In this document: piece by piece, positions 57 to 54,747 of the stretch
Layout: the number at the start of each line of letters is the position of its first letter
Numbering within the stretch: the first letter of the stretch is position 1
Origin: a virus
Strand: one strand, 5' to 3'
IMG/VR virus record: IMGVR_UViG_3300037071_003643
Span: 1-54,747 of that record
DNA length: 54,747 nt
Position numbers and translations under genes: made by a program
Notes under the pieces: model-generated
The model's input: the letters and a program-made list of their open reading frames with translations, nothing else
What the model was told of the DNA's origin: nothing
Database searches by the model: none

Positions 57-152
57 ATCGCTAGCTTTCGGGGTCCCGAGCGCTAGGTTTCCTCGAGGAA
101 TCGCTAGGGTTCCAGGATCGCGGAGCTTTCCGTCCAACATCGCTAGGTTTCA
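57..152. repeat. Phased CGCTAG repeats upstream of terminase
   Basis: Four copies of a motif close to TCGCTAGGTTTC have their CGCTAG cores at about 59, 81, 102 and 141. A degenerate copy (CGGAGCTTTCC) lies near 121. Cores are thus spaced by about 20-22 bases, two helical turns, so all would face one side of the DNA. The array ends directly at the start of the terminase small subunit gene. Such phased sites commonly bind a protein, and terminase recognition (pac or cos-type) is the natural candidate from position. That role is inference; no cleavage site is visible. Confidence 0.7.
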
Positions 153-625: not shown

Positions 626-771
626 GCTGCGGCCCTCGGCACCGCTATCGGGGGCGATTCCACGGTCGGGGCGCGTGCGCGACCGATGAATGGTCGCACT
701 GGCACGTCACCTGCCGGCGCTGCGGCTTCGAGTGGCTGCAGCTCACCCTCTTCGAGATCGAGGCAGCATGA
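622..771 (+). CDS. Small zinc-ribbon-like protein between the terminase genes
   Basis: A 49-codon frame starts with GTG at 622, overlapping the terS stop (GTGA), and ends in an ATGA overlap with the large subunit start. The product has a Cys-Gly at the N-terminus and HVTCRRCGFEW near the C-terminus, so a CxxC pair and scattered His could bind one metal. Both ends are translationally coupled, which supports a real gene although it is very short. Function is unknown; small HNH or zinc proteins beside terminase genes often help packaging. Confidence 0.6.
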   Translation: MSCGPRHRYRGRFHGRGACATDEWSHWHVTCRRCGFEWLQLTLFEIEAA

Positions 772-2375
772 CGCCGAAGGTTCGCGAGCGATTCGACGAC
801 GAGAGCGCGGATCACGCGGTCGGATTCTTCCAGAAGGCGCTCGTGCACACGATCTCCCCATATGCGAGGAAGCCGTTCATCCTCGCGCCGTTCCAGCGAG
901 ACGAGATCGTCAGGCCGCTCTTCGGTACGCAGGTCTGGGCCGACGACCTCGAGCGGTGGGTGCGGAGATACACGCTCGCGTGGCTCGAAGTAGCGCGCAA
1001 GAACGGCAAATCCGAGCTATTGGCCGGTTTCGCGCTGCTCCTCACCGGCGCCGACGACGAGGAGGGCGCGGAGGTCTACGGCGTCGCGAAGGATACGGAC
1101 CAGGCGGGTCGCGTGTTCGGCGTCGCTCGCCGGATGCTCGAACTGGGCGGGCTCGGCGGTCCTCCGCGATCTGGACTGCCATTCACCATCTATCCGACCA
1201 ACAAGCGCATCGTGTACGCCAAAACAGGCTCGTATTACCGCGTGATCGCGTCGGATGCGCTGGGGAACCTAGGTCAGAACCCCCACGGCATCATCTTCGA
1301 CGAGGTCATCGCGCAGCCGAACTCGGAGCTCTGGGACGCGCTGCGCACCGGCTACGGGACGCGCGCGCAGCCCCTCATGATCGCGGCGACGACGGCCGGC
1401 GACGACACCACCAACTTCGCGCTCCAGGAGCACGACTTCAGCGAGAAAGTGGCTGAGGACCCGTCTCTCGATCCCCGGAGGTTCGTCTACATCAAGGGTT
1501 TGCCGCGCGACGCCGACTGGCGAGACGAGAGCAGATGGCCCGAGGCCAACCCCGCGCTCGGGATCTTCCTTCGGAAGCAGGTCTTGCGCGACGAGCTGAT
1601 CAGCGCGCAGTCGAACCCGCGCGAGGAACGGCGCTTCCGGATGTTCCGGCTGAATCAGTGGCAGGACGGCGGAACCGTCGGTTGGGCAGGCTCGGAGAGC
1701 TGGAAACAGCAGGGAAACAGCGGAATGGTCGTCGAATCGAAGCTCTCGGGGCAGCCCTGCTGGGCGGGCGTCATGGCGGCGAGCGCTACGGACGTCGCTT
1801 CGATCGCGTTCGTGTTCCGCGCGCCGGAGGGCGAGGGCGTCTGGACTCGCTGGCAGCACTTCATCCCCGAGGATCGACTCGACGACCTCGAGCGGCGATC
1901 GAGCGGCGCGGCGACGCAATGGAGCAAGAAGGGCGGTTCCCTCCGCGTCACAGAGGGCAACGAGCTGGATATCGACGCGATCGTGCAGACGATCCGCGAC
2001 GCGGCAGAGCTGTACGACCTGCGAGAGCTGGCCTACTTCACCGGGAACGCGCTCGGTATCGTCCAGCCTCTCGTCGCTGACAAGGTCGTCGAGGTTGTCT
2101 CGATCGGAGTGAACGCAGCCGGCTCGGCGCTCGTGGACTGGGAACGGATGCTCTCGCGCGGCGAGTTCAACCACGGCGGGGATCCCTTGGCAGCGTGGCA
2201 GGTCGCGCACCTGCGGGTTCGGGACTCCTCGGCCGGTTTGACCAGGATCGACGTGAAAGCCTCGCCCGAGAACGTCTACTCGATCGTTGCCGCCGAGCTG
2301 GCCATGCGGCGCTATCTGATCGCGAAGCCCCCGCGGAAGAGCGTGTACGCCTCGCGCGGCCTCATGCAGGCATAA
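768..2375 (+). CDS. terL: Terminase large subunit
   Basis: The 535-residue packaging motor and nuclease. The Walker A segment VARKNGKS is at about residues 75-82 and the Walker B segment GIIFDEV ends near 180 with the Asp-Glu pair at 178-179. The C-terminal half should hold the RNase H-like nuclease that cuts concatemers. I start it at ATG 768, which overlaps the preceding stop as ATGA; the frame is open upstream to 690 but that part collides with the small zinc protein. It is followed 8 bases later by the portal, the standard order. Confidence 0.93.
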   Translation: MTPKVRERFDDESADHAVGFFQKALVHTISPYARKPFILAPFQRDEIVRPLFGTQVWADDLERWVRRYTLAWLEVARKNGKSELLAGFALLLTGADDEEGAEVYGVAKDTDQAGRVFGVARRMLELGGLGGPPRSGLPFTIYPTNKRIVYAKTGSYYRVIASDALGNLGQNPHGIIFDEVIAQPNSELWDALRTGYGTRAQPLMIAATTAGDDTTNFALQEHDFSEKVAEDPSLDPRRFVYIKGLPRDADWRDESRWPEANPALGIFLRKQVLRDELISAQSNPREERRFRMFRLNQWQDGGTVGWAGSESWKQQGNSGMVVESKLSGQPCWAGVMAASATDVASIAFVFRAPEGEGVWTRWQHFIPEDRLDDLERRSSGAATQWSKKGGSLRVTEGNELDIDAIVQTIRDAAELYDLRELAYFTGNALGIVQPLVADKVVEVVSIGVNAAGSALVDWERMLSRGEFNHGGDPLAAWQVAHLRVRDSSAGLTRIDVKASPENVYSIVAAELAMRRYLIAKPPRKSVYASRGLMQA

Positions 2376-6269: not shown

Positions 6270-7532
6270 TTGCAAACACGCGTTGGCGTACCGTGGCGGC
6301 CAGATGGCGGTTACCGAGATCGTCTCTGGTCGTTCGCACGAGAGCGGTGGCAGCGCGCGGGGTTCGGGCAGGGGATCGTCGAGGGGCGATCTCCTGCCGG
6401 ACCGTTCAACAGGTCTGCCGCGATCAACGACGCCGCGCACGGCGACTGGGACGTGTTCATCGTCGCTGACGCCGACGTGCTGATCGACGGAGCTCAGGTT
6501 CGCGAAGCGATCGAACGCGCGCTCTCTTCGGGGCGGGTCGTTCTGCCGTTCACCCACTACGTCGGGCTGACGCCGAACATGACCAAGCGCGTCCTCGACG
6601 GGTACGACGGGGACTGGGATCGCGGAGCACGGTTCAGGTCGCAGAAACACGAATCGTCCTGCGTCGTCGTACCTCGAGCGGCGTGGGAGACGACCGGAGG
6701 GTTCGATGAGCGCTTCATCGGGTGGGGACAAGAGGACGTCGCCTTCATCCAGTCGGCCCGGCTGCTCGTCGGCGAAGTCGAACGCATCGACGGCCACGTC
6801 TGGCACCTCTGGCACCCTCGCGCTCCTGAGCGCGACCCGAAACACGTGGAGTACCAGGCCAACCAGGCACTCGGGCAGCGTTACCGTGACGCACGCAGCA
6901 GTCGAGACATACGCGCGCTGATAGGGGAGAAGCAGATGGAGCAGAGCGAGCGCGCGGCGAGGTTCGCGCGCATCTACGACGTGAACGAATGGCAGGGCCG
7001 CGGTGGTGTTCGGGCGGGTCCTGGATCGAGTCTCGCGGCGACAGAGGAACTCGCGCGATCGCTGCCGAAGATCATCGAGGATATGTCGATCTCGTCGGTC
7101 CTCGACGCCGGATGCGGCGACGGGCAGTGGATGCCCGACCTGCCGGGCTATCTCGGCGTCGATATCGTCCAGCGCGCGGTCAAGACGTCCCAGAAGCGCT
7201 ACCCCGAGCGCGAGTACCAGGTGCTCGATATCTGCATCGACGATCTCCCGTATCGAGAGGCGATCATCTGCCGAGACGCGCTCCAGCATCTCTCTCTCGT
7301 CGATGGTCTCTCGGCCCTCAACAACTTCCGCCGCTCGGGTGCCAAGTACCTCCTGGCGAACACCCACCGAGACGGCGATAACGTCGATATCACCAGCGGC
7401 GAGTTCTACGAGGACGACCTCGAGGCAGCGCCGTTCTGGCTCGGTTCGCCGATCCTGGAGATGTTCGACGGACGCTGGGAAGGCAACGCGCATCGCTATC
7501 CCGGCAAGGTCTTCGGAGTCTGGGAGCTATGA
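6270..7532 (+). CDS. Glycosyltransferase-methyltransferase fusion
   Basis: A two-domain enzyme of 420 residues. The N-terminal GT-A domain carries a DxD-type motif (VADADV, 66-70) and FDERFIGWGQED ending near 156. That GWGxED signature is shared with polypeptide-GalNAc and galactosyl transferase families. The C-terminal domain has SAM motif I VLDAGCGDG (about 278-285) followed by YLGVDIV, a class I methyltransferase. TTG at 6270 is the start, after GGGAGCAG. It heads a block of five overlapping genes inserted between capsid and neck genes. Likely work on virion or cell-surface glycans; the substrate is not visible. Confidence 0.8.
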   Translation: MQTRVGVPWRPDGGYRDRLWSFARERWQRAGFGQGIVEGRSPAGPFNRSAAINDAAHGDWDVFIVADADVLIDGAQVREAIERALSSGRVVLPFTHYVGLTPNMTKRVLDGYDGDWDRGARFRSQKHESSCVVVPRAAWETTGGFDERFIGWGQEDVAFIQSARLLVGEVERIDGHVWHLWHPRAPERDPKHVEYQANQALGQRYRDARSSRDIRALIGEKQMEQSERAARFARIYDVNEWQGRGGVRAGPGSSLAATEELARSLPKIIEDMSISSVLDAGCGDGQWMPDLPGYLGVDIVQRAVKTSQKRYPEREYQVLDICIDDLPYREAIICRDALQHLSLVDGLSALNNFRRSGAKYLLANTHRDGDNVDITSGEFYEDDLEAAPFWLGSPILEMFDGRWEGNAHRYPGKVFGVWEL

Positions 7533-37527: not shown

Positions 37528-38276
37528 ATGCCCTCCTCACGGGCTCGTTCGGCTAGGTCCAGGATGTTACCGACGCCCTTGGCCGAGGAGCCTCGAGCGG
37601 GTAGCGGGCCGTCATCCCAGCACCCGTTGTTGAGCCAGGTCGTGGGGAGCATCGTGTAGCGGGGATCGCGGTTCGGGTCGTCTCGGTAGCGCGACGCTCC
37701 GGCGATGATCACACCGGGATCGACGCCGCGTTTGACCGCGGCCTTGAACTTGGCCTCGGCGCCCAGCTTCTTGTCCCGACGTGGATATTCCCGCCAGAAC
37801 TCGGCGAAGGAATGAGCAGCAACTCGAACAAGATTCAAAGGCTCTTGCTCTTGGGGTAGGGGTAGGGGTTCGGGTAGGGGTTGGGGTAGGGGTAGGGGTA
37901 GGGGGCTATGCTGTTGCTTCCCGTTTGCTACAGCCGTGCTATCCGTTTGCTTTCCCCAACGTACCTGCGCGCCCTTGCGACCTGCCCTGACCTTCGCGTC
38001 GTGCTTCTCTCGACTTTGCGCTAGTACCTCCGCGCGTTGCGGGTTGTATTCGAGGTAGTCGTGGATCGTCGGACCCTTGTCCCAAAGACCCGATCTGGTC
38101 AGCTCGTCTGCTATCGCTGTTCCGTATCTCTCGACGATAGCACGCGGGATAGCACCATCGGTGAGGTTACGGGCGACGTAGCAGAGCGTTTCGACGTAGC
38201 ATCTGAACGCTTGGTCACTGAGATCGACCACCTTCGGAGACTCGGCGAAGCGATCGTCGAGACGGACCCAGCTCAT
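37524..38276 (-). CDS. Replisome organizer / replication initiator
   Basis: 250 residues. The N-terminal winged-helix domain reads WVRLDDRFAESPKVVDLSDQ and YVETLCYVARNLTDGAIP. A basic segment (KHDAKVRAGRKGAQVRWGKQ) follows, then a linker of repeated Pro-Leu/Gln/Glu (about 125-145). The C-terminal DnaT-like region has FAEFWREYPRRDKKLGAEAKF and YTMLPTTWLNNGCWDD. This class binds the phage origin and recruits the helicase loader. The linker is encoded by a G-rich tandem repeat that may itself be the origin, as in lambda O. Confidence 0.75.
   Translation of the reverse strand: MSWVRLDDRFAESPKVVDLSDQAFRCYVETLCYVARNLTDGAIPRAIVERYGTAIADELTRSGLWDKGPTIHDYLEYNPQRAEVLAQSREKHDAKVRAGRKGAQVRWGKQTDSTAVANGKQQHSPLPLPLPQPLPEPLPLPQEQEPLNLVRVAAHSFAEFWREYPRRDKKLGAEAKFKAAVKRGVDPGVIIAGASRYRDDPNRDPRYTMLPTTWLNNGCWDDGPLPARGSSAKGVGNILDLAERAREEGI
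37852..37906. repeat. Telomere-like GGGGTA repeat within replication gene
   Basis: On the plus strand nine runs of three or more G are separated by TA, TT or TTC (GGGGTA mostly), giving strong G-quadruplex potential on that strand. On the coding minus strand it yields CCCCTA codons for the Pro-Leu linker of the initiator. Location in the middle of an initiator gene mirrors origins of other phages. Confidence 0.75.
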
Positions 38277-48476: not shown

Positions 48477-48827
48477 ATGCCACGAGCAGCCCAGCGCGCA
48501 TGTGCACAGCCGGGCTGCGGGGGCTTCGCGATCGCCGGTCGCTCTCGCTGTCGAGAGCACGGAGCGTCCCAGCAGCCGCGTCGCCACGACCCGACGCACG
48601 CCGTCTACAAGTCGCCGAGATGGAAGGCGCTGCGGCGTCGAGTACTGAGCGAGGAGCCGGTCTGTCGTCACTGCGGCTCTCGCCCGTCGGTCGTCGTCGA
48701 TCACCTGACGGAGCTCACGGACGGGGGCGACCCGTTCGATCGAGCGAACCTCGCGGGATCCTGTAACGAGTGCAACGTCTCGAAGGGCCAGCGAGCGGCC
48801 CAGCGTCGTAGGAAGGCCTCGGCATGA
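48477..48827 (+). CDS. HNH endonuclease
   Basis: 116 residues. CAQPGCGGFAIAG and CREH form a first Cys/His site. Then YKSPRWKALRRRVLSEEPVC, RHCGSRPSVVVDHLTELTDGG and NLAGSCNECNVSKGQR contain the HNH elements (DH, then N and the final CxxCN). HNH proteins of this type are coupled to terminase in many HK97-like phages. Here it sits before a connector gene at the far end from terminase; on a circular map the two come close. Confidence 0.85.
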   Translation: MPRAAQRACAQPGCGGFAIAGRSRCREHGASQQPRRHDPTHAVYKSPRWKALRRRVLSEEPVCRHCGSRPSVVVDHLTELTDGGDPFDRANLAGSCNECNVSKGQRAAQRRRKASA

Positions 48828-49042: not shown

Positions 49043-49653
49043 CGACGCTCGCGACGCCCCAAGCGCTCGCGGCGATGCGCGGCACGACGTACGACCCGAC
49101 CGATCTCGTGCAGGCGATCTCGCTCGAAGCTGCCTCTGCCGCTGTCCGCGGCTACTGCGATCGCCAGTTCGATTACGTCGAGGACGATGAACTCACGATC
49201 GACGGGAGCGGAGGAGAGGCCCTCCTCCTGCCCGAGCTACCGGTGTACGACGTCGCCGTGACCTACGTGGATCCCGACGGGGACGAGGACGAGGTCGACA
49301 CCGAGGACTACGCGATCGACTTCCCGAACGGCATCCTGTACCGGCACAACGAGGGCTGCTGGACGAGAGGCAGGCAGAACGTTCTCGTGACCTACAGTCA
49401 CGGCTACGTCCTCCCCGACGAGACTCCTCCCGATGGCGTCCAAGCGCTCCCCGACGACCTGCAGATGGTCGTCCTCCAGATCGCGTCTCGCGTCGTCGCG
49501 AATCCCGATGGACGAGCAGCGAGCGCCGAGACCATCGGCAGCTACTCGGTCACCTACGGAGATCGCTCGTCGAACGGCTCGACCGTCCACGCGACGATCC
49601 TGCCGCTGGAGAGCAGCGTCCTCGATCGCTACCGCCTACGGAGCCTGGTATGA
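49039..49653 (+). CDS. Head-tail connector, gp6-like (displaced)
   Basis: 204 residues. LATPQALAAMRGTTYDPTDL, LEAASAAVRGYCDRQFDYVE, LLLPELPVYDVAVTYVD, VLVTYSHGY and DDLQMVVLQIASRVVANPDG are the features of HK97 gp6/SPP1 gp15-type connectors that bind under the portal. In most relatives this gene is next to head-closure; here it is about 34 kb away from that gene (15193). Coupled with small neighbours. Confidence 0.75.
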   Translation: MTTLATPQALAAMRGTTYDPTDLVQAISLEAASAAVRGYCDRQFDYVEDDELTIDGSGGEALLLPELPVYDVAVTYVDPDGDEDEVDTEDYAIDFPNGILYRHNEGCWTRGRQNVLVTYSHGYVLPDETPPDGVQALPDDLQMVVLQIASRVVANPDGRAASAETIGSYSVTYGDRSSNGSTVHATILPLESSVLDRYRLRSLV

Positions 49654-49925
49654 CGCTCGCTCCCGACCTGCAGTTCGAGTTCGCGCACCGCGGTCCCTAC
49701 GCCGTCCTCCTCAGGCGGTCCGAGCCCTGGCCCCGCCACGTGACGATCGGCCACGACTGGCTCGAATGGGCGGGCAACTCCGCCTGGGTGCAGCGCGAGC
49801 CGAACGGCGGAGTCTGGCTCCGTCCCACCGATACGGCGCCCGCTCTCTATCGCTTCGAGCACGCGGCAGACGGCGACGATCACTACCGGCTCGTGGCGGT
49901 CGGCGATCCACCGAGGTTCGTGTGA
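49650..49925 (+). CDS. Small hypothetical protein
   Basis: 91 residues: PDLQFEFAHRGPYAVLLRRS, then HVTIGHDWLEWAGNSAWVQR and a beta-like end RFEHAADGDDHYRLVAVGD. May be a minor virion or neck protein because of coupling with the connector gene (ATGA). Family not recognised. Confidence 0.58.
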   Translation: MTLAPDLQFEFAHRGPYAVLLRRSEPWPRHVTIGHDWLEWAGNSAWVQREPNGGVWLRPTDTAPALYRFEHAADGDDHYRLVAVGDPPRFV

Positions 49926-50128
49926 CTGAGCTCCGCGTCGTCGGCGAGACGTCCTGGAGCGGCTGCGCCATCTGCGATCGAGCGGACGAGCACTACCACT
50001 CGATGGAAGAGCTGGGACGCGCGTTCGCCGAGACGACGGGCCTGACGATCCACGATTCCGACTCGCAACGTAACTGGGCAGCCGCGATCGACCTTGGACC
50101 TTCCGTGGACCTTGGACCTTCGGACTGA
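49922..50128 (+). CDS. Small protein running into the heptamer array
   Basis: 68 residues from GTG 49922 (GTGA overlap). SGCAICDRADEHYHSMEELG is a Cys/His metal site, then helical. The last residues IDLGPSVDLGPSD come from TTGGACC units, so the array has grown into this gene end. Unknown function. Confidence 0.58.
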   Translation: MTELRVVGETSWSGCAICDRADEHYHSMEELGRAFAETTGLTIHDSDSQRNWAAAIDLGPSVDLGPSD

Positions 50129-50207
50129 CAGTCGGCTTGGACCTTGGACCTTTGGACCTTGGACCTTGGACCTTGGACCTTGGACCTTGGACCTTGGACC
50201 TTGCCCG
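50094..50207 (+). repeat. TTGGACC tandem array
   Basis: Two separated copies (50094, 50112) are followed by ten nearly head-to-tail copies (50137-50207; one extra T at 50151). The array is the boundary: the base just after it (about 50213) begins the dinucleotide-restricted segment. The heptamer itself contains TG, GG and CC, the very steps absent afterward. Confidence 0.85.
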
Positions 50208-50212
50208 CGTCT

Positions 50213-50507
50213 CGCGCGCTCGTCTCGATCGACGCTCGCGCGCTCGACGTCGCGATCGCGATCGCGCGCTTCGCTCGCTTCGACGTCTCGCGAGCTTTCG
50301 AGCTTTCGACGATCTCGCGCGCTCGACGCTTCGACGTCGCGATCGCTCGACGCGACTTCGACGCGCTCGAAGATCGACGACGCGCTAGCTCGTCTCGCGC
50401 TCTCTACTAGTAGTCGCTCGACGCGCTCTCTCTAAGCGCTCGTCTCTCGCTCGAACGTACGAGCGCGAAGCGTAAGCTAGAACTAACGCTTTCGTTAGCG
50501 AATACGC
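50213..50507 (+). other. Gene-free restricted leader
   Basis: Nearly 300 bases between the heptamer array and the promoter at 50508. It is a string of TCG, CGC, GACG-like words with stop codons in all frames near its end and no ribosome site. Inverted pieces of CGTTAGCG and GCTAGA occur at 50480-50530. I see no gene. Confidence 0.6.
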
Positions 50508-50536
50508 TAGACGTTCGTTAGCGACTTCGCTAGTCT
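50508..50536 (+). promoter_or_regulatory. Promoter of the 1118-codon gene
   Basis: TAGACG (50508-50513), 17 bases containing GTTAGCGA, then TAGTCT (50531-50536). This equals the leftward early promoter at 45427 in both -35 and spacer. The TGC before the -10 is replaced by CGC, and TATCCT by TAGTCT. Both changes remove excluded dinucleotides. Predicted start is about 46 bases before the ATG at 50589. Confidence 0.65.
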
Positions 50537-50588
50537 CTCGTTAGTCGCTCGTATCGAGACGAGCGAACGAGAGAAAGAGAGACGAGCC

Positions 50589-53500
50589 ATGATCGAGAAC
50601 GAGAACGAGACGCGAGACGCGATCGAAGCGACGATCGAAGAGCTACGAAGCGAGCGCTACGCGAAGTCGAACGAGCGCGACGCTCGCGACGACGACGTAG
50701 ACGCGATTAGCGAGTCGATCGTAGACGAAGAGACGTACGTCGCGAACGTCGCGAAGCTCTCGAACGTCGAGCGCTTCGACGTCGAAAGCTCGATCGCGTC
50801 GAAGCGCGTCGAGCGCGAGCTAGCTAGTCGCGCGAGCGACGATCTCTCGCGCGAGATTCGCGCGCTCGACGAAGAGATCGAAGAGAAAGTCGCTTATCTC
50901 GCGACGCTCGCGAGCGTCGAACGCGACGTCGCGAGCTACGTCGAAGAGACGCTCGACGACGACGCGCTCGCTCGCGTCGCTCGCGCTTCGCTCGACGACG
51001 CGAAGAGCGAAGAGAGCGACGACGCTTTCGATCGCGAAGAGAGCGACGAAGAGCGCGCGACGCGCGAAGAGATCGAGCGCGAAGAGAACGAGTCGAAGAT
51101 CGACTATCGCGATCTCGACGCTTTCGATCGCGCGTTCGATCGAAGCGACGCTCTCGACGTTCTCGCGAGCGAGCTAGACGCGCTTCGCGATCGCGAGATC
51201 GACGAAGAGCTAGCGCTCTCTCGTTCGCTCGCGATCGTCTACGACGTCGTAAAGAGCGCGCGCGTCGAAGCGACGAACGCTACGAACGTCGCGCGTCGCG
51301 TCGCTCGCGATCGCTTCGACGTCGAGCGCGAAGTCTCGAAGCGCTCGCGCGTCGAAGCTCTCGATCTCGCGCTCTCGATCTTCGAGAGCGTCTACGCGAG
51401 CTACGAATACTCGCGCTACGCGATCGACTTCGAGCGCGTCTACGTCGCTCTCGCGACGATTCGCGACTTCGAGATCGAGAACGAGCGCGACGACGACGAA
51501 GCGACGCTCTCGCTCGAAGAGAGCGACGCGCTCGCTAGCTCGATCGTCTCGAAGAGCGCTTACGAGAACGCGACGACGCGCGAAGAGCGCGACGCTCGCT
51601 CGCTCGCTCGACGCGACGCGATCGCGAACGACGCGAAGCGACGCGAGATCGACTCGACGCTCGAAGAGACGCGCGCGAAGATCGACGAAGCGCGTAAGCG
51701 CTCGATCGCGTTCGCGCGCGAGAGCGAGCGAGCGTTCGAGAACGAGACGAGCGACGCGCTCTCGACGTTCGACGTCGAAGAGTACGCGCGAGACGAAGCG
51801 CGCTACGACGCTTATATCGTCTCGCTCGCTACTCGCGTCGTCGAGACGTTCGACGACGACGCGCTCGACTACGATATCTTCGCGTTCGTCGCTCGCTCGC
51901 TCGACGTCGTAGACGTCGAGAGCGCTCGCGAGAACGAAGCGAGCGAAGAGTATCTCGTCTCTCGCGAGACGTTCGTTAGCGTCGCGAGCGACGTCGTACG
52001 AGTCTCGATCTCGCTCGTCTACGACGAAGCGCTCGAAGAGAACGAAGCGCGCGACGTCGAAGCGATCGTCGCTCGTAAGATCGAAGAGCGCGAGCGCGAA
52101 GAGTTCGCGCGCTCGTTCGAGTTCGTCGATTCGCTCTCGAAGATCGAGCGCGACTACTACGACGCTTTCGAGCGCGACTACTACGAGCGCTACGGCGCTA
52201 ACGAGTACGTAACGACGTCGAGCGACGATATTCTCGGTCGCGTCGTCTACGTAGACGACGATCGAGACGAGACGACGACGCGCGAAGAGCGCGAGAACGA
52301 GACGACGACGCGCGTCTACTTCGAGCGCGATTCGTTCGCGAAGCTCGTTAGCGAGACGACGACGAAGAACGACTCGACGACGCTCGACGAAGCTCGCGCG
52401 CTTATCTCGAAGCTCGAAGCGAGCGTCGCGCTCGTCTCGAAGAGCGACGACGACGAAGCGCTCGACGCTACGCGAGACGAGAGCGAGTACGTCGTCGTAG
52501 AGAACGACGACGCGCGCTCTTACGACGTCGTAGCGCGAGACTCGATCGCGAAGCGCGCGACGCGCTCGTTCGACGACGACGACGACGACGAAAGCGAGAA
52601 CGTCGCGAATAACGACGCGATCGCGACTTACGCGAAAGAGAACGACGTCTCTCTCGCGAGCGCTATCGAGACGTTCGACGTCGTCGAAGAGATCGTCGCG
52701 AACGACGATCGCGTAAGCGACGCGCTCGCTACGAGCGTCGCTCGCGAAGAGCTACGCGAACGCGAGATCGACTTCGACGACGAAGCTCTCTCGAAGCTCG
52801 TAGACGAAGCGATCGCGAAGCGCGACGCGACGACGTACGAGACGAAGCGCGAGAGCGCGCGAGACGTCGCTACGCGAGCGCTCGAAGTCGCGAGCGACGA
52901 AGAGCGCGAAGTCGCGATCGAGATCGAAGCGAAGATCGAGAACGCGCGAGACGTCGAGCGTACGAAGCTCGCGAGAGATCGCGCGCTCGATCGTCTCGAC
53001 GCGCTTACGAGCGCTCGCGAAGTCGTCTACGAGCGACAGTTCGAGCTAGACGAGAGCGAAGAGCGCGACGCTTACGCGCTCGTTCTCGACGATCTCGAAA
53101 GCGCGCTCGACGAAGCGCGCGACGACGTAGACGCGAAGCGCGAACGTCTCGCGTCTCTCTACTTCGTCGAGACGAACGACGACGACGCGAAGAGCGACGA
53201 CGCGAAAGCGAGCGACGCTCTCGAAGCGATCGAGCGCGAGAACGCGAAGATAGACGAAGAGACGAAGCGCGACGACGACGCGACGCGCGAGAGCGCTTCG
53301 ACTTCGTTCGCTCGCGCGATCGCGAGCGCTAACGTCGAATACGCTTACGACGTCGCGTTCGATAACGCGATCGACTTCGAGAACGACGACGACGTAGCTA
53401 TCGACGTCGAAGCGCTTATCGACGATCTCGAAGTCGTCGTCTACGAAGCGTCGCGCGAGATCGAGAACGAGTACGAGCGCGACGTCGTTCGCGAAGTCGT

Positions 53501-53945
53501 CGTCGAGTACGTCGAGACGATTCGCGCGCTAAACGCGACGTCTACGACGAGCGAAGAGACGAAGAGCGCGTCGAGCGTCTCGCTTCGCGACTTCGACGAC
53601 GCGCTACGTATCGAGAACGACGAAGAGCGCGTCGCGAAGCTAACGTCGTTCGCGTCGCGCTCGAAGTCGAAGAGCGATCGAAAGAGCGCGAGCGACGAAG
53701 TCGTGCGCGAGTACGTCGCGAAAGCGCTCGACGATCTCTACGCGAGCGAGATCGAAAGCGCGATCGCGAGCGAGCTAGACGCGAACGACTACGAGAGCGA
53801 CGAAGCGCGACGTATCGCGAAGCGCGAAGCTCTCGTTAGCGCGATCGTCGATACGTCGTCGCTCGCTCTCTACGACGCGAACTACGACGTAGACGAGATC
53901 GAAGAGAACGACGCGCTAGAACGATTCGCGCGCGAGATCGTCTAG
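50589..53945 (+). CDS. 1118-residue protein of reduced amino acid alphabet
   Basis: Open from ATG 50589 to TAG 53943. There is no Pro, His, Cys or Trp, one Met (the start), two Gly and one Gln; those rare residues arise exactly where the dinucleotide rule is broken. It is rich in Asp, Glu, Arg, Ala, Val, Ser and looks helical and highly acidic, with coiled-coil-like stretches. Codon third bases follow the next base: Asp is GAC before G/T but GAT before C; Glu is GAA before G and GAG otherwise; Lys AAA before G. The ribosome site is weak (AAAGAGAGACGA), as GG is excluded. The long open frame amid frequent TAG/TAA in other frames favours true translation. No homology is recognised; function unknown. 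Confidence 0.7.
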   Translation: MIENENETRDAIEATIEELRSERYAKSNERDARDDDVDAISESIVDEETYVANVAKLSNVERFDVESSIASKRVERELASRASDDLSREIRALDEEIEEKVAYLATLASVERDVASYVEETLDDDALARVARASLDDAKSEESDDAFDREESDEERATREEIEREENESKIDYRDLDAFDRAFDRSDALDVLASELDALRDREIDEELALSRSLAIVYDVVKSARVEATNATNVARRVARDRFDVEREVSKRSRVEALDLALSIFESVYASYEYSRYAIDFERVYVALATIRDFEIENERDDDEATLSLEESDALASSIVSKSAYENATTREERDARSLARRDAIANDAKRREIDSTLEETRAKIDEARKRSIAFARESERAFENETSDALSTFDVEEYARDEARYDAYIVSLATRVVETFDDDALDYDIFAFVARSLDVVDVESARENEASEEYLVSRETFVSVASDVVRVSISLVYDEALEENEARDVEAIVARKIEEREREEFARSFEFVDSLSKIERDYYDAFERDYYERYGANEYVTTSSDDILGRVVYVDDDRDETTTREERENETTTRVYFERDSFAKLVSETTTKNDSTTLDEARALISKLEASVALVSKSDDDEALDATRDESEYVVVENDDARSYDVVARDSIAKRATRSFDDDDDDESENVANNDAIATYAKENDVSLASAIETFDVVEEIVANDDRVSDALATSVAREELREREIDFDDEALSKLVDEAIAKRDATTYETKRESARDVATRALEVASDEEREVAIEIEAKIENARDVERTKLARDRALDRLDALTSAREVVYERQFELDESEERDAYALVLDDLESALDEARDDVDAKRERLASLYFVETNDDDAKSDDAKASDALEAIERENAKIDEETKRDDDATRESASTSFARAIASANVEYAYDVAFDNAIDFENDDDVAIDVEALIDDLEVVVYEASREIENEYERDVVREVVVEYVETIRALNATSTTSEETKSASSVSLRDFDDALRIENDEERVAKLTSFASRSKSKSDRKSASDEVVREYVAKALDDLYASEIESAIASELDANDYESDEARRIAKREALVSAIVDTSSLALYDANYDVDEIEENDALERFAREIV

Positions 53946-54686
53946 CGCGCTCGATCGCGCTAGAACGAGCGAGCTAAGAGCGACGCGAGAGCGTCGCTCT
54001 CTCGCTGTCTAAGCTCGTCTAAGCGTCGCGCGATACGTCGTTAGTCTCTCGTACTAGCTCGCGCGCTCGACGTCTCTACGTCGCTTAGAGAGCGCTACGC
54101 GCGATCTCGCTTCGCGCTCTCTCGACGTCTCTAAGCGATCGACGCTCGCTCGCGTACGTCTACTCGTCTCGCGATCGCGCGTCGCTTAGACGCGCTCTCG
54201 TAGCGCTACGCGCTCGCTCTCGATCGACGACGCGATCTCGAAGCTCTACGCGCTCGCGCTAGAACGCGCGCTCGATCGTCTCTCGCTCGACGCGCGCTTC
54301 GCTTCGTCGCGCTCTCGATCTCGACGCTACGCGCTCGTCTACGTCGAACGTCTACTCGTACGCGCTCGCTCGCTCGTCTAGCGTAGAGAGCGGCCTAAGC
54401 GACGCTACGACGTCGAGACGCGACGCTCGTACGAGACGCGACGACGCTATCTCGATCGCTTAGAACGCTCGGCCTAAGCCACGAGGCGCGAAAGCTAGCG
54501 ACGATTCGACGAAACCTAGCGCTAGCTTCGACGTCGAGAAAGCTAGCGATACGTATAGCTTCGCGATCGAGAGTAGCTAGCTTCGAGACGTTCGCGAGAT
54601 ACGTTCTAGCGTAAGCGATACGAGAGAACGAGAGATCGTAAGCGACGCTAAGCGACGACGGCCGAGATAGCTTACGTCGTAAGAGA
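53946..54686. other. Gene-free part of restricted segment
   Basis: About 740 bases after the long gene keep the same dinucleotide rule while being full of TAG and TAA in all frames, so the rule is not caused by coding. Direct repeats CGGCCTAAGC are at 54391 and 54470, 79 bases apart, and are the main exceptions. No ribosome site and no convincing gene are seen. Confidence 0.7.
54490..54583. repeat. Inverted copies of left-end CGCTAG repeats
   Basis: GAAAGCTAGCGA (54490), GAAACCTAGCG (54511) and GAAAGCTAGCGAT (54538) are reverse complements of the left-end motif (TCGCTAGCTTTC, CGCTAGGTTTC). Forward-like GCTAGCTTCG occurs at 54520 and again near 54574. If the molecule is circular or permuted, these face the left array across the junction upstream of the terminase genes. 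Confidence 0.62.
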
Positions 54687-54747
54687 TATCCCAGGGCGGG
54701 GTCGAATCTCTCGGTCCGCCGCGCGGGGATCAGCAAGTCTCTCCTTC

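Follow-up and report, generated by a model that had tools for sequence, protein, structure and literature searches.

Which process could remove four dinucleotides almost completely from one end of a phage genome that is otherwise normal? The question is raised by the virus record IMGVR_UViG_3300037071_003643, the 54,747 bases of which (classed as linear) make up the window analysed here, and in particular by a segment close to its right end in which CA, CC, GG and TG are nearly absent. The data consist of one metagenomic contig. The segment and its immediate surroundings comprise the following features:

50090–50205, no strand assigned: GACCTTG heptamer array, rich in the excluded steps, at the left boundary of the segment
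50206–54686, no strand assigned: segment nearly without CA, CC, GG and TG (C is then followed only by G or T, and G preceded only by A or C), delimited by dinucleotide counts and run lengths
50206–50588, no strand assigned: 5′ non-coding flank, obeying the rule, with stops in all plus-strand frames and, 5′ of the gene, TTCGTTAGCGA-like elements in tandem
50589–53945, plus strand: sole gene of the segment, 1,118 amino acids, recognised by its open reading frame, composition and strong period 3
53946–54686, no strand assigned: rule-obeying 3′ non-coding flank, the last 295 bp of which hold most of the exceptions

A terminal segment nearly devoid of four dinucleotides

Between positions 50206 and 54686, the four steps occur 18 times in total, against approximately 1,100 expected from their rate in the rest of the window and approximately 1,380 expected from base composition, so that the exclusion described in an earlier note on this DNA is real. 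That note placed the start at 50213, from which point there are 3 CA, 6 CC, 6 GG and 3 TG; the clean stretch begins seven bases earlier, at 50206. In the remainder of the window, the same steps account for 4.7% (CA), 7.3% (CC), 8.0% (GG) and 4.5% (TG) of all steps. The longest runs free of them within the segment measure 1,603, 800 and 666 bp, compared with 42 bp elsewhere in the window and 62 bp among 282 control loci (2.65 Mb). Likewise, the lowest fraction of these steps in any 1-kb stretch is 0.145 in the controls and 0.18 in the window outside the segment, compared with 0.000 in the segment.

The left boundary is abrupt and falls at the heptamer array, which starts in the 3′ end of the upstream reading frame (49433–50128) and reaches the segment. 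The right limit lies 61 bp from the contig end, and those last 61 bp are exempt from the rule. No tRNA or Rfam RNA was found in the segment; across its right boundary, inverted arms (GGCCGAG...CTCGGTC) around CTTACGTCGTAAG at 54660–54715 look tRNA-like, with no match in ARAGORN or Rfam.

The G+C content of the segment is 61.7%, and the observed/expected ratios are 0.01 for CC/GG, 0.01 for CA/TG, 2.07 for GA/TC and 2.43 for CG. The steps that replace the excluded ones are mixed: CG gains most, followed by GA, AG and AA. Four-base palindromes built from allowed steps are abundant (GATC 72, TCGA 154, GCGC 153, CGCG 241 and CTAG 24 occurrences) and, because every context of the four steps has been removed while these palindromes abound, the avoided unit is two bases long. 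Classic avoidance of restriction sites, which span 4–6 bp and are typically palindromic, does not describe such a pattern. Repeated 14-mers number 141, a mild excess over the 70 ± 16 obtained under a phase-aware Markov model. Expansion by tandem repetition or slippage was rejected as the origin of the segment: its arrays are short and degenerate, without long near-identical units.

The constraint acts on duplex DNA

The single open reading frame of the segment is a real gene. Its 1,118 codons include no stop, whereas 11 to 32 stops interrupt each of the remaining five frames, and in period 3 it matches the signal strength of a control phage gene. The product has a pI of 4.2, a net charge of approximately −167 and a D+E content of 28%, compared with 10–17% in other phage proteins. 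It lacks P, H, W and C altogether and contains only 2 G, 1 Q and 1 M, with essentially 13 amino acids in use. Its hydrophobic residues display a weak helical period (lag 4, about three standard deviations), and the AlphaFold2 model from the single sequence is mostly helical at low confidence (mean pLDDT 43), with no structural match (best Foldseek E=1.0). There were no sequence matches in Pfam, PADLOC or the PDB, and protein and sensitive DNA searches of IMG/VR, phages and plasmids recovered no relatives of the gene, some of which the BLAST low-complexity filter may hide.

The rule is strand-symmetric, with each excluded step exactly as frequent as its complement. At the codon junctions of the gene, none of the four steps occurs, compared with approximately 438 expected. 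Codons are chosen by the next base, as previously noted: in two-fold NNY codons, a final C appears only when G or T follows, and the last base is always T when the next is A or C; NNR codons before G end in A in 61 of 61 cases. Given that only GCG and GCT remain for Ala, and only ACG and ACT for Thr, neither residue can precede a codon starting with G, and dipeptides of Ala or Thr followed by A, V, D, E or G number 0 against 106 expected. Phe, in turn, is followed by a G-starting codon in all 32 cases. Thus, even the order of residues follows the DNA. The two non-coding flanks, which lack period 3 and contain stops, also obey the rule, consistent with the first description of the segment. Taken together, strand symmetry, coverage of coding and flanking DNA, clean codon junctions, next-base codon choice and lost dipeptides demonstrate that the pressure targets duplex DNA rather than protein, mRNA or codon usage, in agreement with the earlier note, which placed it on DNA, and that it overrides both codon choice and amino-acid content. 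Codon junctions and non-coding flanks rule out a protein-level or codon-preference cause, and strand symmetry rules out an mRNA-level cause, i.e., avoidance of RNase targets, start codons or ribosome sites.

The same evidence bears on the proposal that the four steps are harmful to some physical or regulatory role outside defence, such as protein coating, flexibility, spurious starts or ribosome sites, or topoisomerase or primase sites. Without TG and GG, there is indeed almost no ATG, GTG or TTG start and no GG for ribosome binding. However, translation-based reasons are one-stranded, yet both strands are purged equally, and the flanks show no unusual RNA structure (z of −1.4 and −0.2), so that we regard this explanation as improbable. 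The tandem TTCGTTAGCGA-like elements, located at 50482–50544 just 5′ of the gene, are possible operators written in the restricted dinucleotide set.

Exceptions to the rule

The rule was initially worded in terms of steps that never occur, with four exceptions in the reading frame. The depletion is near-total, but with 18 exceptions the rule is close to absolute, not absolute. Two groups of exceptions stand out:

50587–50591, plus strand: CC, CA and TG exceptions at the start codon (GCC ATG)
54392–54479, no strand assigned: GGCCTAAGC in duplicate, with exceptions in each copy and the second copy part of an inverted repeat

All exceptions inside the gene lie within codons, namely, the ATG start, GGC, GGT, CAG and GTG; the initial count of four in-frame exceptions is correct if the start codon is left out and falls short once it is included. 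Three of the four internal cases are two Gly and one Gln, residues without any rule-allowed codon. Ten of the 18 exceptions fall within the last 295 bp of the segment (54392–54686), mostly at repeated or inverted-repeat elements. Exceptions therefore sit where function can demand them: at the start codon, at two Gly and one Gln, and at terminal sites.

Position of the segment in the phage genome

The location of the segment at a genome end was absent from the earlier note, as were the site array shared between the two ends and the mild avoidance of the same steps elsewhere in the genome. The relevant features are:

59–151, plus strand: four CGCTAGSKTTC sites at the opposite genome end, 5′ of the putative small terminase gene
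164–625: putative small terminase gene, assigned by position
690–2375, plus strand: large terminase subunit gene, heading the structural genes and marking the left end (phrog_9, E=3e-109; PF20441)
48477–48827, plus strand: HNH endonuclease gene, 116 amino acids, of the kind accompanying cos terminases (PF01844, E=4.9e-6)
54490–54548, minus strand: three CGCTAGSTTTC sites inside the segment, two rule-compatible (GCTAGC) and one with an exceptional CC
54742–54747, no strand assigned: left half of the dyad TCCTTC/AAGAAGGA across the contig ends (continuing at 1–8), a candidate cos

From position 1, the gene order is putative small terminase, large terminase, portal, maturation protease, major head protein, tape measure and tail proteins, followed by mostly minus-strand genes, including those for a LuxR-type HTH protein, an Erf annealing protein and a Cro/C1-type HTH protein, and then by the HNH gene, with the segment last. 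In the head-gene region, the halves of an open frame at 6270–7532 match galactosyl transferase and methyltransferase PHROGs, and a GGGGTA hexamer is repeated 8.7 times at 37853–37904, in the minus-strand gene region.

The 11-bp site CGCTAGSKTTC is present in seven copies that form inverted arrays at both ends, a paired pattern that occurred 0 times in shuffles of the window; elsewhere among viruses, the site-array pattern was found in two unrelated contigs of lower G+C. Contigs L011 and L012 (terminases 61% identical) start at the same sequence, approximately 500 bp before the large terminase gene. In HK97-like phages, cos cutting takes place with a small-terminase site nearby and is stimulated by an HNH protein (PMC11331095). 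From these features we infer that the contig ends are the physical cos ends of a tailed, probably cos-type phage, with the segment as the right terminus. In phage lambda, packaging finishes at the end that lies opposite the terminase genes, and injection starts there. Since the segment occupies the corresponding end here, gene order suggests that it would be packaged last and would enter the host first. Furthermore, the segment adjoins the probable cos end and has the 11-bp site in common with the far end, so that it looks like a native part of the phage rather than chimeric or recently imported DNA.

These observations are pertinent to two alternative explanations. The packaging nuclease of the phage itself (large terminase plus HNH protein) could prefer such steps, in which case the last-packaged stretch, where the motor would slow near a full head, would have been purged so that cutting occurs only at cos. 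The location at that same genome end, the nearby HNH gene, the terminase-like site arrays flanking the join, the exemption of the last 61 bp and the stimulation of HK97 cos cleavage by an HNH protein (PMC11331095) all agree with this proposal. Nevertheless, the phages found via the same terminase lack such a segment. We know of no dinucleotide specificity among terminase- or HNH-type nucleases, and overall a packaging origin appears to be a long shot. The other alternative, an assembly error, a chimera or a synthetic sequence, could be entertained given that the segment comes from a single metagenomic contig and that a second copy was not found. However, the intact 1,118-codon frame with its strong period 3, the exceptions at functional positions and the 11-bp site array common to the segment and the far contig end render an artefact very hard to believe.

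Background bias and the search for a second case

The rest of the genome leans the same way, with observed/expected ratios of 0.72 for CC/GG, 0.81 for CA/TG, 1.51 for GA/TC and 1.38 for CG, and so do synonymous sites genome-wide: NNC is used in 63% of cases before C and 73% before A, compared with 88–90% before G or T. Other GC-rich phages and bacteria also show mild avoidance of these four steps, and their signature has the same sign as the segment (CC/GG about 0.7, CA/TG about 0.8, GA/TC about 1.5 and CG about 1.4). Such signatures, however, are partial and roughly uniform along a genome, whereas the segment reaches 0.01 within an otherwise normal one. The direction of the bias is thus ordinary; its degree and its local confinement are not. 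Moreover, in intergenic and sparsely coding stretches elsewhere in the genome, the four steps make up a normal 0.22–0.29 of the total, so that a local force is still needed.

A local mutational process, such as context-dependent deamination, biased repair or gene conversion, could set its own equilibrium, with only the positions that cannot be lost escaping. The subordination of protein content to the DNA rule, the weak form of the same bias at synonymous sites genome-wide and the roughly 2.1-fold increase in GA/TC are in line with such a process. By contrast, plain C-to-T change predicts gains of approximately 12 points each for TC+TA and GA+TA and a sharp fall in G+C, yet relative to the rest of the window TC+TA rises by only 3 points, CG gains 8.5 points, the largest increase, and G+C stays at 62%. 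One-way C-to-T decay is thereby ruled out as a sufficient cause, as the initial argument from high G+C had it. The normal intergenic DNA elsewhere and the sharp boundaries also argue against a mutational origin, which we consider unlikely, if worth keeping in view. The hypermutation caused by RIP or deaminases also removes CA-type steps within a bounded tract and leaves A+T-rich, stop-ridden DNA with raised TA/TC; the segment, with its 61.7% G+C, open 1,118-codon frame and CG raised 2.4-fold, does not show this pattern.

Alternatively, the segment could be foreign DNA from a replicon whose whole genome obeys the rule. The sharp left boundary at the heptamer array would suit an import, and in some phage contigs the bias is stronger throughout the genome (L050, L146 and L023, with CA/TG and CC/GG at about 0.5–0.6 of expectation). 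However, no rule-obeying donor appeared in the viral, phage and plasmid collections or in genomes among the matches listed, and the terminal sites of the phage itself, mostly rule-compatible, lie inside the segment. A foreign origin is accordingly rather unlikely in our judgement. The same three contigs and L108 possibly carry a milder form of the same bias, with CA/TG and CC/GG at about 0.5–0.65 of expectation and CG at about 1.6 throughout their genomes.

Dinucleotide counts over the genome and in related phages, called for at the outset, locate the depleted tract in the segment only: there is none in the nine viral relatives found through their terminases (nearly full length) or in G013, a circularly permuted relative of 43.5 kb. 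A strict pattern, which does not match the segment itself, had 7 matches in viral contigs, and a looser one, which matches the segment 7 times, had 49, all of them background; over genomes, the looser pattern likewise gave only background among the matches listed. Given the limited sensitivity of these scans for GC-rich tracts of this kind, uniqueness here means that no second case was found. DNA searches in 397 Actinomycetota genomes and in 284 genomes from the phylum to which a Byssovorax MAG belongs revealed no other rule-obeying segment, and searches for close relatives with the portal and neighbouring genes yielded nothing useful. The host was not found; terminase matches in the sampled genomes reach 43% identity at most. 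Five loci with spacer-like short matches, from a comparison of 20 kb of the phage with 377 Actinomycetota genomes, were inspected, and none lies in a repeat array.

Discussion

Our tentative preference is that the leading end of the genome has been under local selection to lose a two-base motif that is read on double-stranded DNA, be it a PAM-like motif or the target of a two-base nuclease. Under this scenario, strong local selection would clear the leading stretch of the motif, which a host CRISPR system would use as its PAM or a nuclease of very short specificity would recognise. Such machinery would meet the incoming end at a time when neither the acidic protein encoded there nor later genes can act. 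Counter-measures would already be expressed by the time the remaining DNA enters, and its dinucleotides would stay normal. The 1,118-residue product may then be a sequence-tolerant, helix-rich acidic protein, perhaps a counter-defence factor. The mixed replacements, the exceptions at functional positions and the leading-end location fit local selection: strand symmetry points to duplex DNA as the target, and the gains of CG, GA, AG and AA with G+C held at 62% are those expected if any escape is accepted, not those of one type of mutation.

CRISPR spacers reportedly derive from early-injected DNA near cos and are concentrated upstream of it (PMC11619364, citing Modell 2017). PAMs, a known case of short motifs with a strong selective effect, can have as few as two bases (5′-CC for type I-F), and targeted phages carry fewer of them (PMC12174588, PMC4246573). 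As proposed for the segment, phages whose hosts carry CRISPR are under selection against a motif of 2–4 bases on both strands (Kupczok and Bollback 2014, PMC4246573; Ortega-Sanz 2025, PMC12174588), and depletion on both strands beyond codon bias, a trait of such phage DNA, is found here as well. Known PAM depletion, however, is genome-wide and amounts to a few per cent (8.27% vs 8.74% CC in PMC12174588), whereas the segment has lost about 99% of its motifs, over 4.5 kb only, CA/TG included, with a changed amino-acid alphabet. Hence, the statement that no described process gives this pattern needs qualification: motif avoidance by phages is described, but the literature that we found holds nothing near such strength (PMC4246573, PMC12174588).

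Restriction-site avoidance offers a second parallel. Among phages, including T5 with its first-step-transfer DNA, it is strongest in the DNA that enters first, which resembles the favoured reading of the segment. The sites avoided there are nevertheless 4–6 bases long and usually palindromes, whereas the unit here is a dinucleotide and allowed 4-bp palindromes abound.

Several points count against selection at the leading end: the abrupt left boundary, the derivation of first-injected polarity from gene order, the lack of a second example, and the coincidence of the excluded set with the ordinary signature of GC-rich genomes, which a defence motif need not follow. No CRISPR array, matching spacer or PAM for the segment was found in the sampled genomes, and to our knowledge no system recognises 5′-C(A/C)-3′.

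Motif avoidance in phages has so far been seen only as a slight statistical depletion. Here, a residual of approximately 1% across coding and non-coding DNA, with both the residues of a protein and their order bent to the rule, implies a force on duplex DNA beyond most selection at the protein level, and one confined to a single genome end. It is a fair wager, if somewhat short of an even one, that an unrecognised host or phage process reads 5′-CM/KG-3′ on double-stranded DNA at the leading end, purging about 99% of these steps and forcing a 13-letter protein. What the segment points to is either a two-base-specific activity in defence or packaging, or a local mutational process yet to be described.
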